Of a stretch of DNA of 64,000 bases, positions 22,067 through 53,367 are shown piece after piece. The position numbers and the translations under genes were made by a program. Source of the DNA: Flavobacterium ovatum. GTDB lineage: Bacteria > Bacteroidota > Bacteroidia > Flavobacteriales > Flavobacteriaceae. Position 1 is the first letter of the stretch, and every line of letters begins with the position of its first letter. The DNA lies in NCBI RefSeq assembly GCF_040703125.1, contig NZ_CP160035.1, positions 620,001 to 684,000 of the forward strand, in the 5' to 3' direction. Under the pieces are notes generated by a model. The model was given only the letters and a program-made list of their open reading frames with translations. It did not search any database and was not told the origin of the DNA.

Positions 22067-22201
22067 AAATACAAAACAATATTAGCTCTTTGAGCCCCGA
22101 TTGCAGCGATATCCTTGTGGGGCGGGCGTTTATGCCCCACAAGATATAGCGGAAAGCGGGAACCCATATTACCTGAAACTGACAAATGTTTTGCTCCTTA
22201 G
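22067..22201. repeat. REP-like intergenic repeat, copy B
   Basis: Inverted relative to copy A (10473-10620). On the minus strand it reads CTAAGGAGCA, GTTTCAGGTAAT, GTTCCCGC, TTTCCGCTATATCTTGTGGG, stem (CTTGTGGGGC at 22114-22123 with GCCCCACAAG at 22134-22143), then AATCGGGGCT, AAGAGCTAATATTGTTTTG. All blocks match copy A in order, while loop and linker bases differ, which is what selection on the hairpin would give. It lies between the cyclo-ligase gene and the toxin-antitoxin pair. Confidence 0.8.
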
Positions 22202-40900: not shown

Positions 40901-41890
40901 TCATAAACCCAGAATTTTTTCCAAAACCCAACTGGTATGCAAAGCCGATTTCCCAGTTGAAGGATGAATTGCATTCCCTAATAAATGTTCTCTCATGTTT
41001 TGTACATGATAAAACTGTACATTTTCTGGATGGTTAATAAAGTGCTCTGTTGTTCCTTTTTCATTTGTGAGCAGAATTGGGTGTTCCTCAAATATTGCAA
41101 ATTCAATCTTCCCTTTACTTCCCACAATATGAACAATATCTTCACGGGCAGCACAACCAAAATTCCAACTCCCAGTACCTGTAATTCCAGATTCATGAAT
41201 CCATGAAGCTACAATTGCATCTTTGGCAGAATACAGCCCTTGTTGGTTTGTATTAAAGCCTGAAACCTTCACTATATCTCCTAAGATATATTCGAACAAA
41301 TCTATACCATGACTAGCTAAATCATCAAAATATCCACCTTTAGCAACCTTAGCATCTGTCCTCCAATTGTACTCTCCAGACAAATCTACAGGCGAAGTAG
41401 ATTTACTCAAATGCCAACTTATATGCCTAACAGTTCCTATTTCATTTTCATCAATCCATCTTTTTACCTGGGTGAATCTAGGTAAAGACCGACGATAATA
41501 AGCAACAAATAATGGAATATTTTTCGCTTCAAACGCATTGTATAGCACCAAACTTTCTTCATAAGTAGGAGCCATTGGTTTTTCAATACAACAAGGTTTT
41601 CCTGCAGCTGCTACCTTTAAACCATAATAGGCATGAGAGTCTGGTGGTGTTGCGATGTAGACTGCATCGATATCAGGATCATTGATTAAATCATCTGCGT
41701 TACTATACTGTTTCTGAATATCATGTCTTTTTGCGTAATCTGCACATTTTTCTGCATCTCTACGCATCACTGCTATTAGTTCAAAGCCTACTACTTTTTG
41801 GTAAGCAGGGCCACTTTTTACCTCAGTTACGTTACCACAGCCTATGATTCCCCAACGTATATTATTTGAAGTTACTAAAGTCGCATCCAT
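40901..41890 (-). CDS. Gfo/Idh/MocA family oxidoreductase
   Basis: A 329-residue NAD(P)-dependent sugar or polyol dehydrogenase. The Rossmann motif GIIGCGNVTEVKSGPAY is at residues 14-30, the conserved EKP motif follows at about 98-100 (CCIEKPMAPTYEES), and a C-terminal alpha/beta substrate domain carries the catalytic-type Asp/His block (YFDDLASHGIDLFEYIL). No signal peptide, so cytoplasmic. It lies downstream of the glycosylglycerate locus on the same strand but beyond a terminator (42012-42045), so it is probably a separate unit. The substrate is not evident. Confidence 0.9.
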   Translation of the reverse strand: MDATLVTSNNIRWGIIGCGNVTEVKSGPAYQKVVGFELIAVMRRDAEKCADYAKRHDIQKQYSNADDLINDPDIDAVYIATPPDSHAYYGLKVAAAGKPCCIEKPMAPTYEESLVLYNAFEAKNIPLFVAYYRRSLPRFTQVKRWIDENEIGTVRHISWHLSKSTSPVDLSGEYNWRTDAKVAKGGYFDDLASHGIDLFEYILGDIVKVSGFNTNQQGLYSAKDAIVASWIHESGITGTGSWNFGCAAREDIVHIVGSKGKIEFAIFEEHPILLTNEKGTTEHFINHPENVQFYHVQNMREHLLGNAIHPSTGKSALHTSWVLEKILGL

Positions 41891-42011: not shown

Positions 42012-42045
42012 AAAAAAAACCCGTTATGCAGACAACATAACGGGT
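42012..42045 (-). terminator. Terminator of the glycosylglycerate operon
   Basis: Stem ACCCGTTATG / CATAACGGGT (42019-42028, 42036-42045), 7-nt loop, U-run on the minus strand. Between the stop codon and the stem the transcript has a run of 14 U followed by GGUUA. Confidence 0.9.
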
Positions 42046-42083: not shown

Positions 42084-42599
42084 TCATCTTCCAAAATCGT
42101 CTTGTAATCGTACTATATCCTCTTCATCAGACGGGTTTTCCACATCGGTATGTTGCCAAATTTCGGCCACAACTCCCCATGTCTCCAGTCCTATCAAACG
42201 ATGTCTTTCGCCTTTATCCATTTGAATAAAAGCGCCAGACGCTAATTCTTGAATGGCTCCTTCTACATCTGTCAAACTGGTTTTCACGCCCACTTCTCCA
42301 CCTATAACCTTCCAAATCTCAGACCTTCTAAAATGGTATTGCCAAGACAATCTCTTATTTGGCTCTACAATAAGTATTTTTGGGCTTAACTTTTTAGTAA
42401 TCTGAATTTCATCCATTTCAAGATTAGGAAAAAATAGTTTTGCAAAAGCAGCGGCTTGACTTTCATCAATCACAAAAAAACCTCCCCAAGGACGGGTTTC
42501 ATCTTGCTTTACTACATTAAAATTATGCTCTTTTAAAACGGCAGCTATAGTTTCAAAAACTGCCTTTTTATCCATTGTAGATTTTATATCAAAATTCAT
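42084..42599 (-). CDS. Cupin protein related to sugar-phosphate isomerases
   Basis: A 171-residue protein with a cupin barrel like the C-terminal domain of type II mannose-6-phosphate isomerases: RPWGGFFVI, then VEPNKRLSWQYHFRRSEIWK (metal and substrate region; His90-like), and GAFIQMDKGERHRLIGLE. It is soluble, with no signal peptide. It is the last gene of the operon, 52 bp after glycerate kinase. A plausible role is isomerisation of the hexose (mannose or its phosphate) released by the hydrolase, but the enzyme class is inferred from the fold only. Confidence 0.75.
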   Translation of the reverse strand: MNFDIKSTMDKKAVFETIAAVLKEHNFNVVKQDETRPWGGFFVIDESQAAAFAKLFFPNLEMDEIQITKKLSPKILIVEPNKRLSWQYHFRRSEIWKVIGGEVGVKTSLTDVEGAIQELASGAFIQMDKGERHRLIGLETWGVVAEIWQHTDVENPSDEEDIVRLQDDFGR

Positions 42600-42651
42600 T
42601 TTATTCTAATTATTTATTAATAATCTAGATCTGATTCATAAACCAAAACCT

Positions 42652-43779
42652 TTATTTACTATAATTTTTAATCAATTGATAACTCATCTCAGTAAGGTGA
42701 GCCGAAGCATTTTCGATAGCATCATTAACAGTTACACCTAATTCCATTATAGATTGCACACTATAAGGTTTCAAGTTCTCTTCAATCAAGGCTGCATCTT
42801 TAACAACTCCCGCCAAAATTGAAAACGGAATTTGATGTTCACGAGCTCTTTCGCTAATTCCTTTAATCACTTTTCCTTCAATCGTTTGTTTATCAACACT
42901 ACCTTCACCAGTAATAATCAAATCAATTTTATTTTTTACCAAGGCATGAAATCCTGTTTGTTCCATAACAAAATCAATTCCAGACTGAATTTTAGCATTC
43001 AAAAAACAAACGGCTCCAGCTCCCATTCCACCAGCTGCCCCCGCACCTGGTAAATTGGCTACATCTTGACCCAAATATTTCTCTACTTGCTTGCTAAAAT
43101 TTCTTAAGCCCAAATCCAATTGTTCAATTTCATCTGCCGAAGCTCCTTTTTGAGACGCATAAACATATGCCGCTCCATTACTGCCATACAACGGATTCTT
43201 CACATCACAAACCACCGTAAATTCAACATTATTCAAATCAAAATGCACTTCATCATTTTCAATCCTGTCAATGCGAATCAATTCTTTTCCAATAGGATCA
43301 ATTTCTTCTCCTTCTTGCGAATAAAATTTATATCCGAGCGCAGCCGCCATTCCAATTCCAGCATCATTGGTTGCACTTCCGCCAATAAATAAAATTATTT
43401 TTCGAAAACCTCTTTTCAGTGCATCTTTTATCAATTGTCCCGTTCCAAACGAAGTCGAATTACTGCAATCTCGTTTACTCTCCTGTACCATCAATAAACC
43501 CGAAGCATTTGCCATTTCTATAAAAGCCGTATCTTCATTATGGCGATAAGGTGCAATGGTGCTATTAAACAAAGGGTCTTTTACCACCACCAAAACTGTT
43601 TTTAGCTCAAAATAATTTTGTAAAATTGTCAAAGTTCCTTCACCTCCATCGGCTAGCGGATGCTTAATGGTTTCAATAGTAGCGTCAAATTTATTAATTC
43701 CGCTTTCAATTGCATTGCAAACCTCCATCGCAGACAGCGAACCTTTAAATTTATCTGGTGCTATTAAAACTTTCATCAC
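42652..43779 (-). CDS. Glycerate kinase, type 1 (GlxK/GarK family)
   Basis: Phosphorylates D-glycerate with ATP, in this family usually to 2-phosphoglycerate, feeding lower glycolysis. The 375 residues show the N-terminal IAPDKFKGSLSAMEVCNAI, HPLADGGEGTL, the hallmark GGSATNDAGIGMAAALG, GAGAAGGMGAG and the late ITGEGSVDKQT. No signal peptide. It follows the symporter gene after a 299-bp gap that contains a large hairpin repeat, and precedes the cupin gene. A glycerate kinase beside an MGH1-like hydrolase is the main reason to propose glycosylglycerate as the substrate of the locus. Confidence 0.94.
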   Translation of the reverse strand: MMKVLIAPDKFKGSLSAMEVCNAIESGINKFDATIETIKHPLADGGEGTLTILQNYFELKTVLVVVKDPLFNSTIAPYRHNEDTAFIEMANASGLLMVQESKRDCSNSTSFGTGQLIKDALKRGFRKIILFIGGSATNDAGIGMAAALGYKFYSQEGEEIDPIGKELIRIDRIENDEVHFDLNNVEFTVVCDVKNPLYGSNGAAYVYASQKGASADEIEQLDLGLRNFSKQVEKYLGQDVANLPGAGAAGGMGAGAVCFLNAKIQSGIDFVMEQTGFHALVKNKIDLIITGEGSVDKQTIEGKVIKGISERAREHQIPFSILAGVVKDAALIEENLKPYSVQSIMELGVTVNDAIENASAHLTEMSYQLIKNYSK

Positions 43780-43929
43780 ATTTACTTTTTAAAATTAAAA
43801 AAGAACACTCTCGGTGGTATTTTGCTTTTATCCAAAACCCAAATTAGCAGAACTAATTTAGGCTTTTGAACTAGTAAGCATTCTCAAGAGTGTTCGTTTA
43901 AATCTATTTCCTTTTCAAAATAATTATTT

Positions 43930-44052
43930 GGGCGCGCCACCATCCTCAAAAAAAGGGCCAATAATCTATACGCTTATAAGCCCTTTTTTCAGGATGCTGT
44001 CGGGCTATCCGCACCGCTATGGCGGTTTGCTTCTATCCCTCACGCAAACCCG
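43930..44052. repeat. Large hairpin repeat inside the operon (REP-like, variant E)
   Basis: Between the symporter and glycerate kinase genes. It begins GGGCGCGCC, has a 17-bp imperfect stem (CATCCTC-AAAAAA-GGGC at 43941-43958 with GCCC-TTTTTT-CAGGATG at 43980-43996), then GTCGGGCTATCCGC and GCTTCTATCCCTCACGCAAACC. The last phrases are of the kind seen in dispersed Bacteroidota intergenic repeats. It may attenuate or stabilise the message and so set the level of the two downstream genes. Confidence 0.65.
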
Positions 44053-44078
44053 TTAAAACATATATTATTCTATAATTA

Positions 44079-45701
44079 TTAGCGTATCCCAGCCAAAATC
44101 GATGGCAAACTAAAACTAACTCCAAGAATGATTATAAAGAATACAACCAAGATGATAACATCTTTTGACAAAACATCTTCTCTCTTTAGTTTAAAATCAA
44201 TATTGAAATCTTTGTTTTTCTCTGTTTTAAACAAAGCACTAAATACTAAAGCCAGTACAAAAGTGATTACAAAACCGGTAAGGTTAAACCAAATCCAGAA
44301 AATATCCTCAAAGAAATATTTGATGCTAATATTAATCAAAACCCCCCCTATAATCCCAACATTCATACCAATATAATTGACTCTTTTGACCAATATAGCA
44401 ATAATAAAAGTAGCTAATATAGGTCCGTAAAATTGTGACGAAATCATATTAATCAACTCAATCACCGTTCCACCAGTATTCCCAAAAAGATAGGCTGATG
44501 CAATACACACAAAGCCCCAGAACACGATCGAAATCTTAGACAATTCCATATATTTTGCCTGGCTCAATTTGACTTTACCTCTATTAAAAAGATCTTCTAC
44601 AGTCACCGCTCCCAAAGAGTTGATTGTAGAACTCACAGAAGACATTGCCGCAGACAAAATCCCAACGATCAAAATTCCAATCATACCATGAGGTAAATAT
44701 TTCATGATGAAAACAGGCAACATCAAATCAGGTTTAATACCGCTAGTTGCAAACTCTTTTGGATAATGTTTTTGTGTAACCGCTGCAATTTCACTCATAA
44801 AATCAGGTGTTAAATGCACCAAAGCTCCAATGATTAAACCCATAATACAATAGGTCAATACTACTGGAAAACGCAACAATCCATTCGCTAACAATATATT
44901 TTTAGCAGCCTTTTCATCCTTCGCAGACAACAATCGTTGCGCTTGTGTTTGATCGGTTCCATAATAAGATAAGTACAAAAATAATCCCCCTAAAATCATA
45001 GGTAAAAACCCAAAGGTACCACCATCAAATCCTAAATTATTCATGTCTACCACTTGCAAACGCTCTGTTTCAAAACCGTTGAAATTAGGATTCGCTTTCA
45101 ATAAATCCCATCCGTAATAAATACAAATTAGCAATCCACCAAAAAGGATAATCATCTGGATGGCATCACCCCAAACTACAGCTTTCATCCCACCCATTAA
45201 CGAATAAACAATAGTGATAACGGAAATCAAAAGGATAGTATAATGAAAACTAATATTCAAAACTGATTGCAAAATAATAGCAATGGTATAGACCGCAACT
45301 CCTGTTGATAAGGAACGGCTAATTTGAAAAACAAAACTCAAAACAATTCGAGTAGAAGTCGAAAAACGTCTTTCGACAAACTCATAAATACTCACAATAT
45401 TCGCTCGATAAAGAGGCGGAACAATAATTAAAATAATTCCAATCATGGCCAATGGCACTGCCAACTCAAAGGTCAACCACTTCATTCCTCCTCCTTGCGC
45501 TAAACCAACAAACGCAGGCGCCGAAATAAAACTGATGGCAGAGAGTTGGGTCGCCATGGCAGATAAACTTAATGGAAACCATCCCATTTCCTTACCTCCT
45601 AGAAAATAATCCTTTGCATCTTTGTTTTCTTTGAAAACAAATCCTAATCCTAAAAAGGCAATTAGGTAAACGATAACCACTATATAGTCTATCCAGTTCA
45701 T
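44079..45701 (-). CDS. Sodium:solute symporter (SSS family)
   Basis: A 540-residue inner-membrane transporter with about 14 membrane helices. It has the SSS N-terminus (IDYIVVIVYLIAFLGLGFVF, then KDYFLGGKEMGWFPLSLSAM), the family block GGMKAVVWGDAIQM, and QRLLSAKDEKAAKNI, typical of sodium/sugar (SGLT-like) members in Bacteroidota. It lies 20 bp after the GH63 gene. Because that hydrolase is cytoplasmic, this symporter is the likely importer of the intact glycoside. Confidence 0.94.
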   Translation of the reverse strand: MNWIDYIVVIVYLIAFLGLGFVFKENKDAKDYFLGGKEMGWFPLSLSAMATQLSAISFISAPAFVGLAQGGGMKWLTFELAVPLAMIGIILIIVPPLYRANIVSIYEFVERRFSTSTRIVLSFVFQISRSLSTGVAVYTIAIILQSVLNISFHYTILLISVITIVYSLMGGMKAVVWGDAIQMIILFGGLLICIYYGWDLLKANPNFNGFETERLQVVDMNNLGFDGGTFGFLPMILGGLFLYLSYYGTDQTQAQRLLSAKDEKAAKNILLANGLLRFPVVLTYCIMGLIIGALVHLTPDFMSEIAAVTQKHYPKEFATSGIKPDLMLPVFIMKYLPHGMIGILIVGILSAAMSSVSSTINSLGAVTVEDLFNRGKVKLSQAKYMELSKISIVFWGFVCIASAYLFGNTGGTVIELINMISSQFYGPILATFIIAILVKRVNYIGMNVGIIGGVLINISIKYFFEDIFWIWFNLTGFVITFVLALVFSALFKTEKNKDFNIDFKLKREDVLSKDVIILVVFFIIILGVSFSLPSILAGIR

Positions 45702-45721
45702 AATTAATTATTTTAAAACTA

Positions 45722-47032
45722 TTATTGATTTTTCATGTCCAAATACAAAGCCGCACTCCAAGAGAAATTCCCTCCTCCATACCCTTTGTTCTCTGTCTCA
45801 TAAGCTGCTTTTATGGGATTAAAATACTCATAAAAACCCACTTTTGATAATAATTCAAAACTATCCGATTTTACTCTGTCGGCAATTTCAGTGTAGCCGT
45901 AATCTTTCAATCCGTAATACAACATCCAGTTAAGGTTGATCCAAACCGGTCCTCTCCAATATTTTTTTGGATTGAAACGTTCATTCGTAGGATCAAAAGA
46001 CGCACATAAATACATATCGTCACCACCAAACTTAGTCATCATAGTATTAATGATTGTTGCTGCTTGTTCCTTGCTTGGAATTCCTGCAAACAAAGGAGAA
46101 AAGGATGATGAACTCACAAAACGAATTGGTTTTTCATTCCTTAAATCATAATGAACATAAGCGCCTAATTCTGCATCGTACAATTTCGAATTAAAAGAGG
46201 CTTTACTTTTTGTTTGCCATTTTTCTAGTTGTGCAATTTTGTCTTCGTTTCCTCCAATGATTTTGTACAAATCAATCAATGCTTCATTTGACTTAATCAA
46301 CATAGCATTGAAAAGCGGATCTTGTACTAAGAACGGAGAAAGTTCGGCAATTTTTTGGTCATCATAATTGTGCTCTTTGGCAATATCTATAATGTACAAA
46401 TAATGGTCGTATTCTCTATTAGAAGGACGCTCCGAAGGATCAATAAGCTTTGTGTCTTTTCGTTCAAAAGTATAAGTTGGCGGATCCATTGTTTCCCAAA
46501 TATCATCCCATAGAGGCGAATTATCTGTTCCCGATTCCCAATTGTGGTAGATGTACACCAAGCCTTCATTTTGAGGATCTCTCTTACTATAGAAATAGTT
46601 GTGATTGTCGTATACTTTTCCAATATTTTCTATAATAAATTGGAGTACATCCTCTTTGTTTTGTGCTATTTGATACATTTTTTCTAATGTAAAGCCCAAA
46701 ACAGGTGGTTGCGTCATTCCTGTTGAAGGATACTCTTTGTTAGACAAAGGATGCAACTCGGCTTGGTGAAAATCTGGTCCAGGAAAATAAGAATCTGACT
46801 TTTGATGAAAAACAATGTGCGGTATAAAACCATTCTCCCATTGTGCATCAAGAAGTGTTTTCATCTCAGCCTTCGCTTTTTCCATATCATAATGCGCAAA
46901 TCCAAGGGCAATAAATCCGGAATCCCATTTCCATTGAAAAGGGTATAAACCTTTACATGGAATTGTATATCCTCCTGCTTGGAAATTTTCATTCAATATT
47001 TGTTGTGCTTCTTTAGTTAAATCAGTAGCCAT
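45722..47032 (-). CDS. GH63 / MGH1-like glycosylglycerate hydrolase (predicted)
   Basis: A 436-residue (alpha/alpha)6-barrel glycoside hydrolase with no signal peptide, hence cytoplasmic. It begins with the substrate-side block FQWKWDSGFIALGFAHYD (32-49). WESGTDNSPLWD (165-176) holds the probable acid Asp170, and YEYFNP (401-406) the probable base Glu402, with KYWRGPVWINLNW (357-369) and GGGNFSWSAALYLDM near the end. Order and spacing match GH63 mannosyl- and glucosylglycerate hydrolases; other trehalase-like enzymes remain possible. It lies 20 bp before the symporter gene and 71 bp after the TonB-dependent receptor gene. Confidence 0.8.
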   Translation of the reverse strand: MATDLTKEAQQILNENFQAGGYTIPCKGLYPFQWKWDSGFIALGFAHYDMEKAKAEMKTLLDAQWENGFIPHIVFHQKSDSYFPGPDFHQAELHPLSNKEYPSTGMTQPPVLGFTLEKMYQIAQNKEDVLQFIIENIGKVYDNHNYFYSKRDPQNEGLVYIYHNWESGTDNSPLWDDIWETMDPPTYTFERKDTKLIDPSERPSNREYDHYLYIIDIAKEHNYDDQKIAELSPFLVQDPLFNAMLIKSNEALIDLYKIIGGNEDKIAQLEKWQTKSKASFNSKLYDAELGAYVHYDLRNEKPIRFVSSSSFSPLFAGIPSKEQAATIINTMMTKFGGDDMYLCASFDPTNERFNPKKYWRGPVWINLNWMLYYGLKDYGYTEIADRVKSDSFELLSKVGFYEYFNPIKAAYETENKGYGGGNFSWSAALYLDMKNQ

Positions 47033-47103
47033 AATCAGATATTTTTTAATAAAAAGAATGCTAGTACAGTTTGCAAAAGCATCCTTTTATTGTAATTAAT
47101 TTA

Positions 47104-49698
47104 TTAGAAATTGAAAGTCAAGTTCATCAAAGCAGTTCTAGGAATAATAGGTCTTCCTACAAAGAATTGCTCATCTGTTTGATTATCACCTAATCTTGGA
47201 GAACCTTCTGTGATTCCAGCAGAGTTAAACAAGTTGAAAGATTGTGCTCCAATACGAAGTGTTTCGTTGTCTTTACCCACATTGAATGTGTACCCTAAAC
47301 TTAAATCCACAATTCCAAAACCTTTTAATAAAACCGTATTAGCATCATTAGTGTATTTGTCACCTGCGTAGTTATAATCAAAATTTGCATCGAAGTTTGA
47401 TTTGTCATAAGACAATCCCAGTTTTGTCATTACATTCGGTTGTCTTGCCAATTTGTTTCCAACGAAAGTTGGGCTATTCTCTGACTTAGTCAATTCATGT
47501 TTTTGGTAAGTAAAAGTTCCGTTGAAAGCAAATCCATCTACAAATCTCCAGTTCCAAGTAGTTTCAATACCTGCTGATTTAGTATCTTGTAAATCTACTT
47601 TTTCAGTAAATCCACCTAGACCGTCATTTAAAAATGCAATGTTTCTTCTATCAGATAAGTTAAGAGAGAAAAGCGCTGCCGTTCCAGAAAAATTTCCTTG
47701 ACCATATTTAATACCTACCTCAGATTGAATAATTTTTTCAGGAGAATAAGTAGAATGACCTCCATTAGCATTAATTTTTACAGAACGCAATTCAGGAAAG
47801 AAATACCCTTTAGAAAAGTTACCATAAACACTAGTGCTTTGGCTTATTTTGTACAATGCTGCCAATGAAATTGCATAATCATCTGTAGAAACTTTTGCAG
47901 TTTCATATGCTCCAGTTCCCCAAGTTACATTTTCAATCTTAGCGTTTCCTGCAAAAGTGCTCATTTTAAAAGCTGCTGTCTTTTCGTTTTGAATAGTTCC
48001 AGAAGCTGTTTCATGTCGGATACCAATATCAAAATTCCATTTGTCTAATTTAATTTGATCTGTTAAGAAAAAAGCCAATTTATTACTCGTAACATTTTTG
48101 TTTGAATATCCAGCTCCTCTATTCGTTACACCATCTACAGTATAACCAGAAAGGTTGACTAATCCTGGACTATTGCTATATTCGCTTAAATAACTAGTGG
48201 TAACATTCATATCTCCCGCAGAAGCTCTAGACATAAATGTCCCCGCTGTTACAGTATGAACTCCCATTTTATTAATCAATTTAATCTCGGAAACTAATTC
48301 ATCTATTGGACGAACTCTATCTAATATTCTGTTTTCGAATAAAAGTGCATTTGCTGGTAAAGCTGCACCGTTTAGAGTTGTAAAATTACCTGCTGCTATA
48401 CTTCTTGCTGCTTTATATTGATCTTGAGTTTCAACAACTTTAGGCCCCGTTAATCCACTTCCGTCTAAGAATAAATTAAACTGGTGTTTGTAACTCGATT
48501 TTCTAATTTTAGCATCAATAGAGAAATTATCTGAAAAATCGTGAACAAAATTCGTCATAAAATAACCCCCTTTTGTAGCAACCCCATCTCTGATATTCGT
48601 TTTGAAAATTCCATCAGGCGTAGCATAAGAGATATTTGCAGCTGCAGCAGTTTGCAAAGTCACGATTTCATTACCATCATTACCAATTGGTCTTTCTCTG
48701 CTTCCACCTTGTAATGGGTAAGGCAAAAAGAATTGTACTTTGTCATCAATCACCTGTCCTGAGAAAGTAATGGTACTTTTCTCCGTTACTTTTTTCACAT
48801 TTCCACGAATTTGGTACCCTTCAGTTGGCAATCCAGTTTTGATTGGTCCTTCATCGTAACGATAAAAACCTGTAACAGCATAGAACATATTAGAATCTTT
48901 TCCTCCTAATTGACCGCTAGATAAGAAATCTGCTTTGTATCTTGAATTAGTTCCTACTTCTGTTTTGAAAATATTTTTTGGAGTAGTTGATCCTGTTACA
49001 CTTGTATAGTTAATAATACCTGCTACAGAACCTGCACCATATAATACTGATGAACCACCACGAATAAACTCTAAACTTTTCATTCCAATATCTGTTCTGA
49101 AATAAACATCATGCGCAGATGAGTTCAATCCAAAAGTTGATAATACTGGCATTCCATCAATTTGAATAGGATTAAACTGAAATTGTCCTCCAGAAGGTAA
49201 ACCTCTCACAAATACATTGGATCCTACCTCACCACCACCATTTTCTGTGGTAATCCCAGGAACACTTCTCAAAATATTGGCTTGACTACTTGTATTAAGC
49301 TTGGTCAAATCCTTAGCACTAAAAGAAGTTACTGAAACTGGTGTTTCTTTTTGAGAACGTTTTACCGATGTACCCGTTAATACTACTTCGTCAAGCATTT
49401 CCATACTCTCTATTAATGTAAAATCTAAGGTTACTTCATTCCCTGCTAATTTTACACTTTTAGTTTGTTCTTTAAAACCAATAGTAGCGACTTTGATTTT
49501 TTTATCACCACTTAATTTAGTGATTAATACATATTTCCCGTCGAAATCTGTTGTTACTCCAACATTGGTACCAACAATAACAACATTCACTTGTGGGATT
49601 GGATTGTTCTTTTCATCCAATACCGTTCCTTTTACAGTGGTTTGCGAATAGGAAACAGTTCCTATTAACAACAAAAATACTTTGATATAGTTTTTCAT
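47104..49698 (-). CDS. TonB-dependent outer-membrane receptor
   Basis: An 864-residue outer-membrane transporter: signal peptide (1-19, GTVSYSQ), a carboxypeptidase-regulatory-like beta-sandwich (about 20-100; VKGTVLDEKNNPIPQVNVVI), plug domain (about 110-230; PVSVTSFSAKDLTKLNTSSQ and VFVRGLPSGGQFQFNPIQID) and a 22-strand barrel ending in ALMNLTFNF. No SusD-like partner follows, so it is not a classical SusCD system; this suits a small substrate. It is the first gene of the operon, and two tandem operator-like repeats lie about 100 bp upstream beside the divergent LacI gene. Confidence 0.94.
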   Translation of the reverse strand: MKNYIKVFLLLIGTVSYSQTTVKGTVLDEKNNPIPQVNVVIVGTNVGVTTDFDGKYVLITKLSGDKKIKVATIGFKEQTKSVKLAGNEVTLDFTLIESMEMLDEVVLTGTSVKRSQKETPVSVTSFSAKDLTKLNTSSQANILRSVPGITTENGGGEVGSNVFVRGLPSGGQFQFNPIQIDGMPVLSTFGLNSSAHDVYFRTDIGMKSLEFIRGGSSVLYGAGSVAGIINYTSVTGSTTPKNIFKTEVGTNSRYKADFLSSGQLGGKDSNMFYAVTGFYRYDEGPIKTGLPTEGYQIRGNVKKVTEKSTITFSGQVIDDKVQFFLPYPLQGGSRERPIGNDGNEIVTLQTAAAANISYATPDGIFKTNIRDGVATKGGYFMTNFVHDFSDNFSIDAKIRKSSYKHQFNLFLDGSGLTGPKVVETQDQYKAARSIAAGNFTTLNGAALPANALLFENRILDRVRPIDELVSEIKLINKMGVHTVTAGTFMSRASAGDMNVTTSYLSEYSNSPGLVNLSGYTVDGVTNRGAGYSNKNVTSNKLAFFLTDQIKLDKWNFDIGIRHETASGTIQNEKTAAFKMSTFAGNAKIENVTWGTGAYETAKVSTDDYAISLAALYKISQSTSVYGNFSKGYFFPELRSVKINANGGHSTYSPEKIIQSEVGIKYGQGNFSGTAALFSLNLSDRRNIAFLNDGLGGFTEKVDLQDTKSAGIETTWNWRFVDGFAFNGTFTYQKHELTKSENSPTFVGNKLARQPNVMTKLGLSYDKSNFDANFDYNYAGDKYTNDANTVLLKGFGIVDLSLGYTFNVGKDNETLRIGAQSFNLFNSAGITEGSPRLGDNQTDEQFFVGRPIIPRTALMNLTFNF

Positions 49699-49795
49699 AA
49701 CTTAGGTTGATTAAATTAATTTATTTGGTTATTTGTTTCAGCTAATTTATAATGGAACACAATCATTTGATACCAAAAATTAACGAAATATTAAC

Positions 49796-49819
49796 GGGAA
49801 CGTTTGCGGGAACGTTTGC
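49796..49819. promoter_or_regulatory. Tandem LacI-type operator (two 12-bp repeats)
   Basis: GGGAACGTTTGC occurs twice back to back (49796-49807, 49808-49819). Each contains AACGTT, and the reverse strand reads GCAAACGTT, close to the central AAACGTTT of many LacI-family operators. It lies 45 bp before the LacI-type gene and 98 bp before the TonB-receptor gene, so it can serve both divergent promoters. Confidence 0.65.
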
Positions 49820-49863
49820 GACAGTAAATTATTTTTATAACTTTACCAAGAATATAGCAAAAT

Positions 49864-50895
49864 ATGAGTAAAAAAAATATCATAACCCTAAAAAAACTGG
49901 CTCAGGATTTAGAATTATATATTTCAACAGTTTCCAGAGCTTTGAACGACCATTCTGATATCAGCGACGAAACAAAAGAGCGCGTTAAAGCTTATGCTAG
50001 CAAAGTGAAGTACGTTCCCAATCTCTTTGCCAAAGGATTTCGTTCTCACAAAACCAACATTATTGGGGTTATTATCCCGAATATAGAACACCGTTTTACA
50101 TCGACCTTACTTAGAGGTATTATTTCGGCATCAGAACTCAACGGATATAAGGTTATTATTTGTGAATCATTTAATAGTGATGCAAAACAATCCGAATTAT
50201 TAGAAACGATGATTCAGTTTGGAGTTGATGGTGTTTTATTGTCCTTAACCAAAAAAACCAAAAATGTAGATGAGATTCTCGAAATGATGAAGCATATTCC
50301 GCTTATATTATTTGACCGAATTTCGAATAAAGTACCCTGTACACAAATTATCATTGATGATGAAGAAGCCGCTTTCCAAGCAGTAGAGCATTTGATCAAT
50401 ACAGGCAAAAAAAGAATTGCTATCATCAAAGAGACAGACAGTTCCAATGTGTCTGAAAGACGGTATCAAGGTTACTTAAAGGCCTTGCGCAAACACAACC
50501 TAGAAGTTGATGAAAGTCTTATTATGAGCTCTGAAGATTTGTCTATCGAAGAAGGGCAACGTCAAACCAAAATATTATTGAGCTTACAAAATAGACCCGA
50601 TGCGATTTTCACTATTATTGACGAAGCTGGAATTGGAGCAATAAAAGAACTTAAAAAAAATAAAATCAAAATTCCCAAAGAAGTTGCAGTTGTAGGCTTT
50701 AGTAATTCGACTTTCTGTACAATTATACAACCCAAGATGTCGAGCATTGATCAGCCTGGTAACCGAATTGGAGAGGTAGCTGTTAAGTATTTAATCGAAG
50801 AAATAAATTCAGATGAAACAGTACACCATAAAACCATCGAAATAAAAACCAATCTAATTGTTAGAAAATCATCATTTAATCCTTTGAAAAAATAA
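49864..50895 (+). CDS. LacI family transcriptional regulator
   Basis: A 343-residue repressor: N-terminal helix-turn-helix (about 6-55; ITLKKLAQDLELYISTVSRA, LNDHSDISDETKERV) with hinge region, then a periplasmic-binding-protein-like sensor domain (about 60-335; IIGVIIPNIEHRFTSTLLRG, AIFTIIDEAGIGAIKELKKN). It is divergent from the TonB-receptor operon with two tandem operator-like repeats between them, so it probably controls that operon. The inducer is presumably the imported glycoside or a product such as glycerate. Confidence 0.94.
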   Translation: MSKKNIITLKKLAQDLELYISTVSRALNDHSDISDETKERVKAYASKVKYVPNLFAKGFRSHKTNIIGVIIPNIEHRFTSTLLRGIISASELNGYKVIICESFNSDAKQSELLETMIQFGVDGVLLSLTKKTKNVDEILEMMKHIPLILFDRISNKVPCTQIIIDDEEAAFQAVEHLINTGKKRIAIIKETDSSNVSERRYQGYLKALRKHNLEVDESLIMSSEDLSIEEGQRQTKILLSLQNRPDAIFTIIDEAGIGAIKELKKNKIKIPKEVAVVGFSNSTFCTIIQPKMSSIDQPGNRIGEVAVKYLIEEINSDETVHHKTIEIKTNLIVRKSSFNPLKK

Positions 50896-51060: not shown

Positions 51061-53367
51061 CTAGTACATCATTTTTTGCTTAAGATTTTCTTCAATCTTA
51101 ATCTCTCCAGAATTTTTAATGATATTGTCTTTTGGAGCTTGTCCTTTTTCTCCCCATAATACTGCAATTGCTGCAATTGGATTATTGGTAAAATTGTTAT
51201 TTGCCAAAACTACATTTACAATTCCTCTAGTTTTAACCAAAATTCCGCTAGCTTCTTCTTTACCAGAATTGATAACTGTATTATTTTGAAAAACTAAATT
51301 TCCTCCAATTGTAGATTCGTCATAACCACCACGGTAGTAATCCAAAACACTTGATTGTATGGCGTCAAATTTTGAATTTTTGATATACACAAACTCAGCA
51401 TTGTACTCTCCCAAATCTTCATCTTCGTCAGCTAAACGAATTCCTCTTTTACAGTTTTTAAAAACCGAATTATCAATCGAAATGGTATCTGCAAAAGCAT
51501 CTTTATACGCATTCAAGACCGTATCAAAATCACTAACTTCAATATTATTTGCCCAAAGGTTATAAGCGCTTTTCATGTTTTTTTCTAAAGTTGCAAAAGC
51601 ATATTGCTCTTTATTCCCTTTCATAATCAAATTCTCCACCACCAAGTTTCCTTTTGGCTCCATCAAAAAAACAGGACTTTTGGCGGCTCCTAAATACAAA
51701 AGCGTTGCTTTGCTCTTTTTATCTTTGGCCTTAATGGTTATTGCCTTATTAATAACTAAAGATTCATTAAGCGTATAAACTCCTTTTTTCAATTCGATAA
51801 TAGTTCCAGCCGCAGCAGCTTCCAACGCAGACACTAATTCTTTAGCAGTCCCAACTTTTATCGTTTTTGAAGCCTCTGCTTTTTTCTCTGTCGAAAACCA
51901 ATTGGTTCCGTAGTCTTTTGCAGCAATCGTTCCTTTGCTATTATCTACTGGTAACACTAGAGCTCCAATCGCATTTGAAACTGTTCTGTCCTTTCCAAAA
52001 ATATCTTTTTTGATGTTTTCAAAATCAAAACCTTGGTAAGCGTCAATATTATTGGCTGTTGGAACATACAACCAATCGGATATCTTAGTTACCGAAAAAT
52101 TCTCTGTTTGGATTCCTTTGTCTTTTACATCACTATTATTAGGACTGTTTAGAATGTTATTTTTAAACAAAACACCATCTACTTTGTCGTATGCTTTTAC
52201 CGGAAAATCATTGGGTGTTTGATTGTAAATAACATTGTTTGCTACTACAATTCTGTCTGGTCTAGCCGAACGAATTTCTGAAGCAGGAAGCACATCCTTT
52301 TTATCCATATTGGCACCAACACTAAACTGCCAGGGTGTAATACAATCTACAAAAGTATTATAGGCTATTACCGCATCGGTTACTTGATTGTAACGGTTTA
52401 GTGGTGATTTTGGAACGCCATTCATAACAGCCAATGCACTACGAAATTCTTCTCCTTTTATTTTGTAAAAATAATTATTAGTAATCCAATGACCCGTATT
52501 TACAACGCGAACACCTCCCATGAAATCAGACTTTTCATCTCCTATAAATATATTCCCATCAATGGTACAGTAATTTCCGTGACGCAACACCAATGAACCT
52601 TCAGATTTGTAGAAAATATTATTTCGGTATTCATTATAATTTGATTTGTTCGAAATGATTTCAACTTCTCCGTCACATCTTTCGAATAAATTATGAGAAA
52701 CTATAGTGAATGACGGAGCCATCGAAGTTCCACTATCTCCTATTTGAATGGTTTCACCGTGTGGCCCACCTTTTCTTGGTCTTGGCCCAAAATGATTGTT
52801 CGTAATTTGGTGGTAGTTATTTATATGTTCGTTTCCTTTCAATACCACCATAATAGTTGGTCCTTGATTGGATTTACCAGTAATGTAATTATGATCCAAT
52901 TGATTGTTTCTTCCCCAAAATTCGATCCAGTGATCATCATTCACACGGTTTAACTGTGTAAAATCTTCTATTACACATTGAGTTACTTTACAATGGTTGG
53001 CTATATTTTTTTTATCAATATGAAAATCAATTATAGTACTTGATGGTGTGTATCCATTTCTAAAATACAATCCGCTTACCTCAAGGTAGGTTCCTCCTAT
53101 TTTCAAATCAGAAACTCCTTCGATAAAAACCTTTCCAGAGGTTTCTGCTCTCAAAACAATCGGTGCATTTTGAGTTCCTTTTCCTGTAAATTGAATCTGA
53201 ATATCTTTCCAAACTCCATTTGTCAGCACAATCTCGTCTCCAGCTTTTGCTTCTTTAATCGCCGCTTTTAACTCTTGTTGATTCGCAACTTTAGTACTCT
53301 TACCGGCATCGGTTGGACAAAACGAAAACAATAAAAAAATTACTCCTAAGAAAATTACCTTCTTCAT
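51061..53367 (-). CDS. Two-domain PL6 alginate lyase (AlyGC-like)
   Basis: A 768-residue exported alginate lyase with a signal peptide (1-22, FLLFSFCPTDAG) and two right-handed beta-helix domains: catalytic (about 25-480) and C-terminal (about 510-755; TIKVGTAKELVSALEAAAAG onward). The catalytic set is Glu234, Glu236, Lys241 and Arg262 (in LRHGN), with Lys to Arg 21 residues apart as in AlyGC (Lys220/Arg241). No T9SS tail, unlike the first PL6 enzyme of the window, so it is probably periplasmic or bound to the outer membrane. AlyGC is an exo-lyase, and a similar role on oligo-alginate is likely. A uronate-type operator is 106 bp upstream (53473-53490), shared with the divergent RraA-like gene. 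Confidence 0.9.
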   Translation of the reverse strand: MKKVIFLGVIFLLFSFCPTDAGKSTKVANQQELKAAIKEAKAGDEIVLTNGVWKDIQIQFTGKGTQNAPIVLRAETSGKVFIEGVSDLKIGGTYLEVSGLYFRNGYTPSSTIIDFHIDKKNIANHCKVTQCVIEDFTQLNRVNDDHWIEFWGRNNQLDHNYITGKSNQGPTIMVVLKGNEHINNYHQITNNHFGPRPRKGGPHGETIQIGDSGTSMAPSFTIVSHNLFERCDGEVEIISNKSNYNEYRNNIFYKSEGSLVLRHGNYCTIDGNIFIGDEKSDFMGGVRVVNTGHWITNNYFYKIKGEEFRSALAVMNGVPKSPLNRYNQVTDAVIAYNTFVDCITPWQFSVGANMDKKDVLPASEIRSARPDRIVVANNVIYNQTPNDFPVKAYDKVDGVLFKNNILNSPNNSDVKDKGIQTENFSVTKISDWLYVPTANNIDAYQGFDFENIKKDIFGKDRTVSNAIGALVLPVDNSKGTIAAKDYGTNWFSTEKKAEASKTIKVGTAKELVSALEAAAAGTIIELKKGVYTLNESLVINKAITIKAKDKKSKATLLYLGAAKSPVFLMEPKGNLVVENLIMKGNKEQYAFATLEKNMKSAYNLWANNIEVSDFDTVLNAYKDAFADTISIDNSVFKNCKRGIRLADEDEDLGEYNAEFVYIKNSKFDAIQSSVLDYYRGGYDESTIGGNLVFQNNTVINSGKEEASGILVKTRGIVNVVLANNNFTNNPIAAIAVLWGEKGQAPKDNIIKNSGEIKIEENLKQKMMY

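Follow-up and report, generated by a model that had tools for sequence, protein, structure and literature searches.

The window analysed here, a 64-kb stretch of the single-contig 4.25-Mb genome of Flavobacterium ovatum, contains a six-gene locus that is probably one divergently regulated unit for the uptake of intact mannosylglycerate (digeneaside), its likely cytoplasmic hydrolysis to mannose and D-glycerate, and the predicted entry of both products into glycolysis. This reading is built on the gene families present, their conserved order, the active-site residues of the hydrolase, an operator between the divergent genes, and a phosphomannose isomerase that recurs at the operon end.

In the proposed scheme, a TonB-dependent receptor (TBDR) and a sodium:solute symporter (SSS) would import the intact glycoside, which a hydrolase of the mannosylglycerate hydrolase (MgH) type would cleave with inversion. 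The glycerate would be phosphorylated by a glycerate kinase (GK); kinases of this class yield 2-phosphoglycerate. A cupin would convert mannose-6-phosphate to fructose-6-phosphate, and the glycoside or one of its products may release the LacI-family regulator. Glucosylglycerate is probably cleaved too. If this is true, many algae-associated flavobacteria consume red-algal photosynthate by way of a compact, SusD-less uptake operon, and digeneaside consumption, so far a matter of prediction in the sources consulted, could be tracked in metagenomes by a sequence marker.

A first-pass annotation had interpreted the region as a complete glycosylglycerate utilisation locus. All the features it named, namely five minus-strand genes, a divergent LacI gene and tandem operators between them, are present (Table 1). 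The predicted MgH-type hydrolase with conserved glycerate contacts, the GK, the uptake pair and the local regulator stand; the claims of completeness, lack of precedent and a link to alginate do not.

Table 1. Features of the locus, in window coordinates.
Feature	Position	Strand	Family matches and predicted role
TBDR	47104..49698	-	CarbopepD_reg_2, Plug, PF00593 barrel; predicted outer-membrane uptake; SusD gene not adjacent
MGH1-like (GH63-type) hydrolase	45722..47032	-	PF22422; predicted cytoplasmic mannosyl-/glucosylglycerate hydrolase
SSS	44079..45701	-	PF00474, TIGR00813 above cut-off; predicted inner-membrane uptake
GK, TIGR00045 class	42652..43776	-	PF02595, TIGR00045 above cut-off
Stand-alone type-II phosphomannose-isomerase-like cupin	42084..42599	-	PF01050
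Terminator-like hairpin and T tract, 3' of cupin	42019..42045	-	Probable operon end
LacI-family regulator, divergent	49864..50895	+	PF00356, PF00532
Tandem LacI-type operator	49796..49822		AACGTT-centred sites 49799-49804 and 49811-49816, 12 bp apart

The hydrolase and its active site

The 436-residue hydrolase covers the whole PF22422 profile (positions 1-356; 305.4 bits, cut-off 27) and contains both the WESGTDNSPLWD and the YEYFNP motifs, in agreement with its earlier description as an MGH1-like enzyme of the GH63 type. It had also been called signal-less; by eye, the N-terminus of the window protein has no signal-like hydrophobic run, and a crude pattern for such a run matches none of the hydrolases from 80 relatives (defined below). 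Among solved structures, the window hydrolase is closest to TTHA0978 of Thermus thermophilus (2z07/4wva; 320.6 bits over residues 6-431), while structures of the mycobacterial glucosylglycerate hydrolase (GgH) score 220-227 bits. There is a match to the trehalase model PF01204 as well (58.9 bits).

The excerpted text of PMC6608630 names the Thermus enzyme (TthMgH; PDB 4wva) as a mannosylglycerate hydrolase and lists the sugar and glycerate contacts and the catalytic residues of the GgH of Mycolicibacterium (Mycobacterium) hassiacum (MhGgH). Nineteen positions were taken from this source: Y36, W40, W42, D43, H78, Y88, F89, Q115, W177, G180, D182, R216, Y222, Y375, W376, W381, E419, Q434 and W436. 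At eighteen of them, the window and all 80 relatives have the MhGgH residue; alignment to D182 and E419 of MhGgH places the acid at D170 and the base at E402 of the window protein. The remaining position, Gln434, is Phe in the window, in 80/80 relatives and in all seven other references, TthMgH included, so that the window hydrolase matches TthMgH at all 19 positions. Differences among the other references are confined to two positions: H78 is Ser in Physcomitrium and Marchantia, and Q115 is Asp in Deinococcus. According to the same excerpt (PMC6608630), Gln434 of MhGgH bonds the sugar; the flavobacterial enzymes are therefore MgH-like at that position.

Conservation of the gene set

A profile of eight hydrolases, compared with named genomes, gave 290 confirmed relatives, and the loci of the best 80 of these 290 were analysed. 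Gene presence was scored by tblastn with the window proteins, and open reading frames (ORFs) were also clustered de novo; some contigs stop within the locus, and the presence counts are lower bounds. By tblastn, the hydrolase is present in all 80 loci, the SSS and GK in at least 79 each, the TBDR in at least 76 and the divergent LacI gene in at least 75. De novo clustering yields five core clusters (80, 79, 78, 74 and 72 loci), and no other cluster exceeds 17 loci. The gene set, which the first-pass annotation had proposed to look for in other Flavobacteriia, is thus kept across many genera (75-80 of 80 loci), with the same order in dozens of relatives. Five of the records among the best 80 are from Zobellia, and many are from Maribacter. 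A sample of 299 Flavobacteriaceae genomes had the hydrolase at E <=1e-60 in 43, and a sample of 395 Bacteroidota had it in 19, the genome of the window being counted in both.

The closest named relative by hydrolase among these 80 is Flavobacterium sp. 7A (L051; 97% identity). It is the only one of them with tblastn matches to the Gfo, PL6, RraA, ALDH and GDH genes that surround the operon in the window. The locus had been said to fit the neighbouring alginate lyases; since PL6 adjoins the operon in 1/80 relatives, the link between operon and alginate genes is not conserved, and a functional link to them, shared by Flavobacterium sp. 7A alone, was rejected. An acetyltransferase-like cluster (cluster 5; 17 loci, one representative scanned) and other optional genes were likewise judged unrelated. 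In Frigoriflavimonas asaccharolytica (L052:11331-12720), a deletion fuses the symporter (residues 1-273) to GK (from residue 181); this operon looks decayed, though its hydrolase is 92% identical. The PL6-type (Chondroitinas_B) protein of the window (51061-53367, 768 residues) has no Pfam match beyond residue 450 at the threshold used.

Glycerate kinase and predicted phosphomannose isomerases

GK exceeds the cut-offs of both PF02595 (426 bits, cut-off 23.3) and TIGR00045 (403.1 bits, cut-off 168.45), and its best solved match is 3cwc, 'Putative glycerate kinase 2' (239 bits). The ORF opens at a GTG at 43779; the ATG at 43776, one codon inside, is the likely start.

The cupin matches PF01050 at 41.5 bits (cut-off 23.6). 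Its alignment shows RPWGGFF and EEDIVRLQDDFGR; an RPWG start and a DDI-R end are what we take to be the motifs of stand-alone type II phosphomannose isomerases, and archaeal enzymes of this kind top the list in a structural comparison. Sequence searches of the PDB with the cupin of the window and with that of a second locus (L063) gave nothing useful. Close homologues are labelled 'phosphoheptose isomerase' or 'mannose-6-phosphate isomerase' in public records; family match and neighbourhoods favour the latter as a predicted function. Of ten other places in the genus that carry the cupin, six have GH130, GH92 or GDP-mannose genes nearby.

Adjacency of isomerases to GK was counted where a GK ORF had been called, which was so in 78 of the 80 loci, with L052 outside this set. 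A class I ManA starts between -20 and +28 nt from the GK stop in ten of these loci, from seven genera; the one ManA gene scanned with profiles gives 155.9 bits with TIGR00218 (cut-off 116.2), the others having been assigned by clustering. In another five, the cupin starts 2 to 14 nt 3' of GK. The recurrence of a phosphomannose isomerase at this position provides a genomic argument for mannose as the sugar.

Flavobacterium sp. 7A retains the alginate genes and the neighbourhood, and by eye a similar hairpin, without the cupin (L051:14393-14712). The cupin has therefore been recently lost or gained.

Weighing the substrate

A number of observations weigh against mannosylglycerate. For the hydrolase, a maximum-likelihood tree, from which the Rubrobacter enzyme was left out, unites 81 Bacteroidota rows in one clade; that clade and MhGgH both sit on very long branches, because of which the tree cannot assign MgH or GgH specificity. 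The best NCBIfam match is the GgH equivalog NF047898 (328.8 bits, below the cut-off of 550). Furthermore, a sucrose-phosphorylase-like GH13 gene is found in the operon of three relatives (L068 and L123, both profile-scanned, and L100, assigned by clustering), and the first of these also has a mannosylglucosylglycerate-synthase-like gene (419.9 bits, below the cut-off of 640) adjoining the hydrolase; these genes point to glucosyl substrates in those relatives.

The isomerase argument has its own counterweights. The PF01050 score of the cupin is modest, and in the structural comparison its best Z of 14.5 is 1.0 above that of an unrelated cupin, the second (13.9) less than 1 above. By tblastn, the cupin occurs in six of the 80 relatives and is absent from the closest one; neither isomerase lies directly 3' of GK in 63/78 loci. 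ManA may not have been gained separately in the ten loci: one label change suffices on the tree, with unlabelled rows omitted. In 4 of the 10 other places in the genus, no mannose gene is present in the surroundings scanned.

Finally, there is no hexose kinase in the operon. When the ORFs in the loci of the 80 relatives were searched by phmmer, with two queries each for ROK and PfkB, a single kinase-like one emerged, a ROK gene 61 nt 3' of GK in L091. The genome of the window gave no match to ROK or to PF02685 (Glk), for which the controls matched in 12 and 4 of 14 genomes; a PF00349 scan matched no control genome and so carries no weight on kinase presence. The first-pass claim that the locus encodes the whole route from the outer membrane to lower glycolysis is consequently too strong for the sugar half, since the conserved set includes no hexose kinase and the genome searches for ROK and PF02685 were negative.

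Four PfkB genes are present in that genome (five matches, two in one gene), and none is a proven mannose kinase. L133 exceeds the cut-off of TIGR03168 (the 1-PFK subfamily, described as hexose kinase) and is near 6-phosphofructokinase II. The other three are below all listed cut-offs: L135 is ribokinase-like, L136 is most similar to the kinase portion of a KHG/KDPG aldolase-kinase fusion, and L134, which is ribokinase/fructokinase-like and adjoins a polyol-dehydrogenase-like gene near genome position 1,183,762, is a candidate fructokinase by resemblance. Because ROK and Glk hexokinases were not found, an isomerase-first route was considered, in which the cupin, in the slot of class I ManA elsewhere, would convert mannose to fructose for phosphorylation by a PfkB-type fructokinase, the whole unit being under a repressor that reads two overlapping pur-box-like operators 12 bp apart throughout the family. 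We regard this version as distinctly unlikely.

The same observations bear on what else the hydrolase might cleave. Glucosylglycerate occurs as a solute in marine cyanobacteria and other bacteria; it could be the main natural substrate and yield glucose and glycerate, with mannosylglycerate a side substrate at most. The 18 of 19 contact and catalytic residues shared with mycobacterial GgH point this way, as do NF047898 as best match, albeit below its cut-off, and the GH13 genes of L068, L100 and L123. However, Phe replaces Gln434 in 80/80 relatives, as in MgH, two kinds of phosphomannose isomerase lie directly 3' of GK in 15/78 loci, and no ROK or PF02685 glucokinase was found in the genome of the window; we consider it unlikely that glucosylglycerate is the main substrate.

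A different small alpha-glycoside (mannosylglucosylglycerate, trehalose or glucosylglycerol), with the kinase acting on a different acid, would be consistent with the PF01204 match and with the synthase-like gene beside the L068 hydrolase. It is nevertheless very unlikely: the glycerate contacts Y36, W40, Y88, R216 and Y375 do not vary across the window and 80/80 relatives, GK occurs together with the hydrolase in 79/80 loci, and glucosylglycerol is not cleaved by MhGgH, as stated in the excerpted part of PMC6608630. Recycling or scavenging of a compatible solute for osmoprotection instead of carbon, suggested by the role of mannosylglycerate in other organisms (PMC8490865, in excerpt), is extremely improbable, as the solute is predicted to be destroyed once inside, GK and isomerase are catabolic, and a local LacI regulator fits nutrient induction.

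As an observation on the L068 operon itself, from a Eudoraea metagenome-assembled genome, the hydrolase is flanked there by the synthase-like glycosyltransferase and the GH13 gene (L068:8661-13049); a mannosylglucosylglycerate or glucosylglycerate variant of the operon is possible.

Tandem operators and predicted regulation

Uptake and use of mannosylglycerate would be controlled from the region between the LacI and TBDR genes, which holds GCAAACGTTCCCGCAAACGTT, with two AACGTT-centred sites 12 bp apart. Operator counts are limited to loci with both ORFs called and under 600 bp between them (71 of 80), and the controls are random windows of the same loci, in which the true site is occasionally included. 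AACGTT is present in 68 of 72 intergenic regions (71 relatives and the window), compared with 266 of 3550 random windows. An exact pair of sites at the 12-bp distance is present in 49/71 relatives and in 56/7100 random windows. One exact site accompanied by a second with at least 4/6 matches 12 bp away occurs in 65/71 relatives, a count with no random-window figure beside it. The tandem operator exceeds chance.

In its own genome, the double site without mismatch occurs once only, at the locus, so the regulator is probably local. A genome-wide search for a double-operator regulon gave no second site better than 3 mismatches; at 3 mismatches there are two more places, and a reversed control pattern gives 16 at <=3. 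Each operator half resembles a PurR box, and two 16-bp boxes at 12-bp spacing would overlap. With its two sites 12 bp apart, the operator lends itself to a direct test of regulation.

Receptor, symporter and limits of the operon

Among ten window proteins scanned around the receptor, none matches a SusD family, as the first-pass annotation had noted, and the receptor itself is below the cut-off of the SusC/RagA model TIGR04056 (91.7 bits, cut-off 368.25); on both counts, the locus falls outside the SusC/SusD-type polysaccharide utilisation loci. The pattern used for the receptors, slightly broader in letters and stretch than that for the hydrolase, finds an N-terminal hydrophobic run in 71/72 receptors of relatives, and the window receptor fits by eye. 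The best solved chains for the symporter are Na/iodide, multivitamin and monocarboxylate cotransporters, a bacterial SSS (5nv9) and SGLT1.

From the TBDR through hydrolase, SSS and GK to the cupin, the gaps between genes measure 71, 20, 299 and 52 nt. The hairpin at the end of the cupin (42045-42019) is weak evidence alone, the region having seven such sites against a shuffle mean of 5.4. A Gfo/Idh/MocA gene (40901-41890) is probably separate; it was rejected as an operon member, with a 193-nt gap that contains the hairpin and a counterpart only in Flavobacterium sp. 7A among the 80.

The 299-nt spacer between symporter and GK (43780-44078) contains two strong inverted repeats with a predicted fold of -93.4 kcal/mol. 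It is 85% alike in Flavobacterium sp. 7A and 76% alike over 88 nt at a second place in its own genome (L160); apart from the window's own pieces, the fetched loci gave no further match. It may be a repeat element or an attenuator within the operon. A Flavo-1 RNA (RF01705, 65.7 bits) lies further away in the window (22089-22167, plus strand).

Relation to known systems

The first-pass annotation knew of no described Bacteroidota locus of this kind. Digeneaside degradation has already been attributed to Zobellia and Maribacter: gene homologues were reported in Maribacter dokdonensis from the characterised algae-adaptive traits of Zobellia galactanivorans (Barbeyron 2016b as cited in PMC8072126, in excerpt), and digeneaside is among possible flavobacterial substrates in an excerpt of PMC6298971. 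The substrate prediction for the group is therefore not new. Digeneaside, which is mannosylglycerate, is found in Ceramiales (PMC8490865), an occurrence with which PMC8523428 agrees while adding early-diverging red algae (both in excerpt). Among the papers listed by literature searches on mannosyl- and glucosylglycerate hydrolases and digeneaside, no experimental test of the prediction in Bacteroidota was found. The present analysis adds how widely and constantly the gene set is kept, the comparison of active-site residues, the argument from phosphomannose isomerases, the paired operator and the missing kinase.

The trait described for Z. galactanivorans and M. dokdonensis concerns the same class of bacteria and the same proposed substrate, as far as the excerpted sources go. 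Z. galactanivorans is not among the 80 loci, and the five-gene set was seen in other Zobellia species. The phosphomannose-isomerase-like cupin of the window operon is absent from the Zobellia and Maribacter loci.

MhGgH shares with the window hydrolase the fold family and the catalytic pair D182/E419; it differs in its lower similarity (220-227 bits, compared with 321 for TTHA0978), in Gln434 in place of Phe, and in being linked to recovery from nitrogen starvation, not to uptake (PMC6608630, in excerpt). TTHA0978, the closest solved relative, has the same residues at all 19 positions, yet long branches separate the two in the tree, and the flavobacterial gene shares a predicted uptake operon with genes for a regulator, a receptor and a symporter.

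Escherichia coli uses external mannosylglycerate through MngR/MngA/MngB, a local regulator, import with phosphorylation by the phosphotransferase system (PTS), and a GH38 mannosidase. Utilisation of the external solute under a local regulator is thus common to both systems, whereas the PTS and GH38 enzyme of E. coli are replaced here by a TonB receptor, a symporter and a GH63-type hydrolase.

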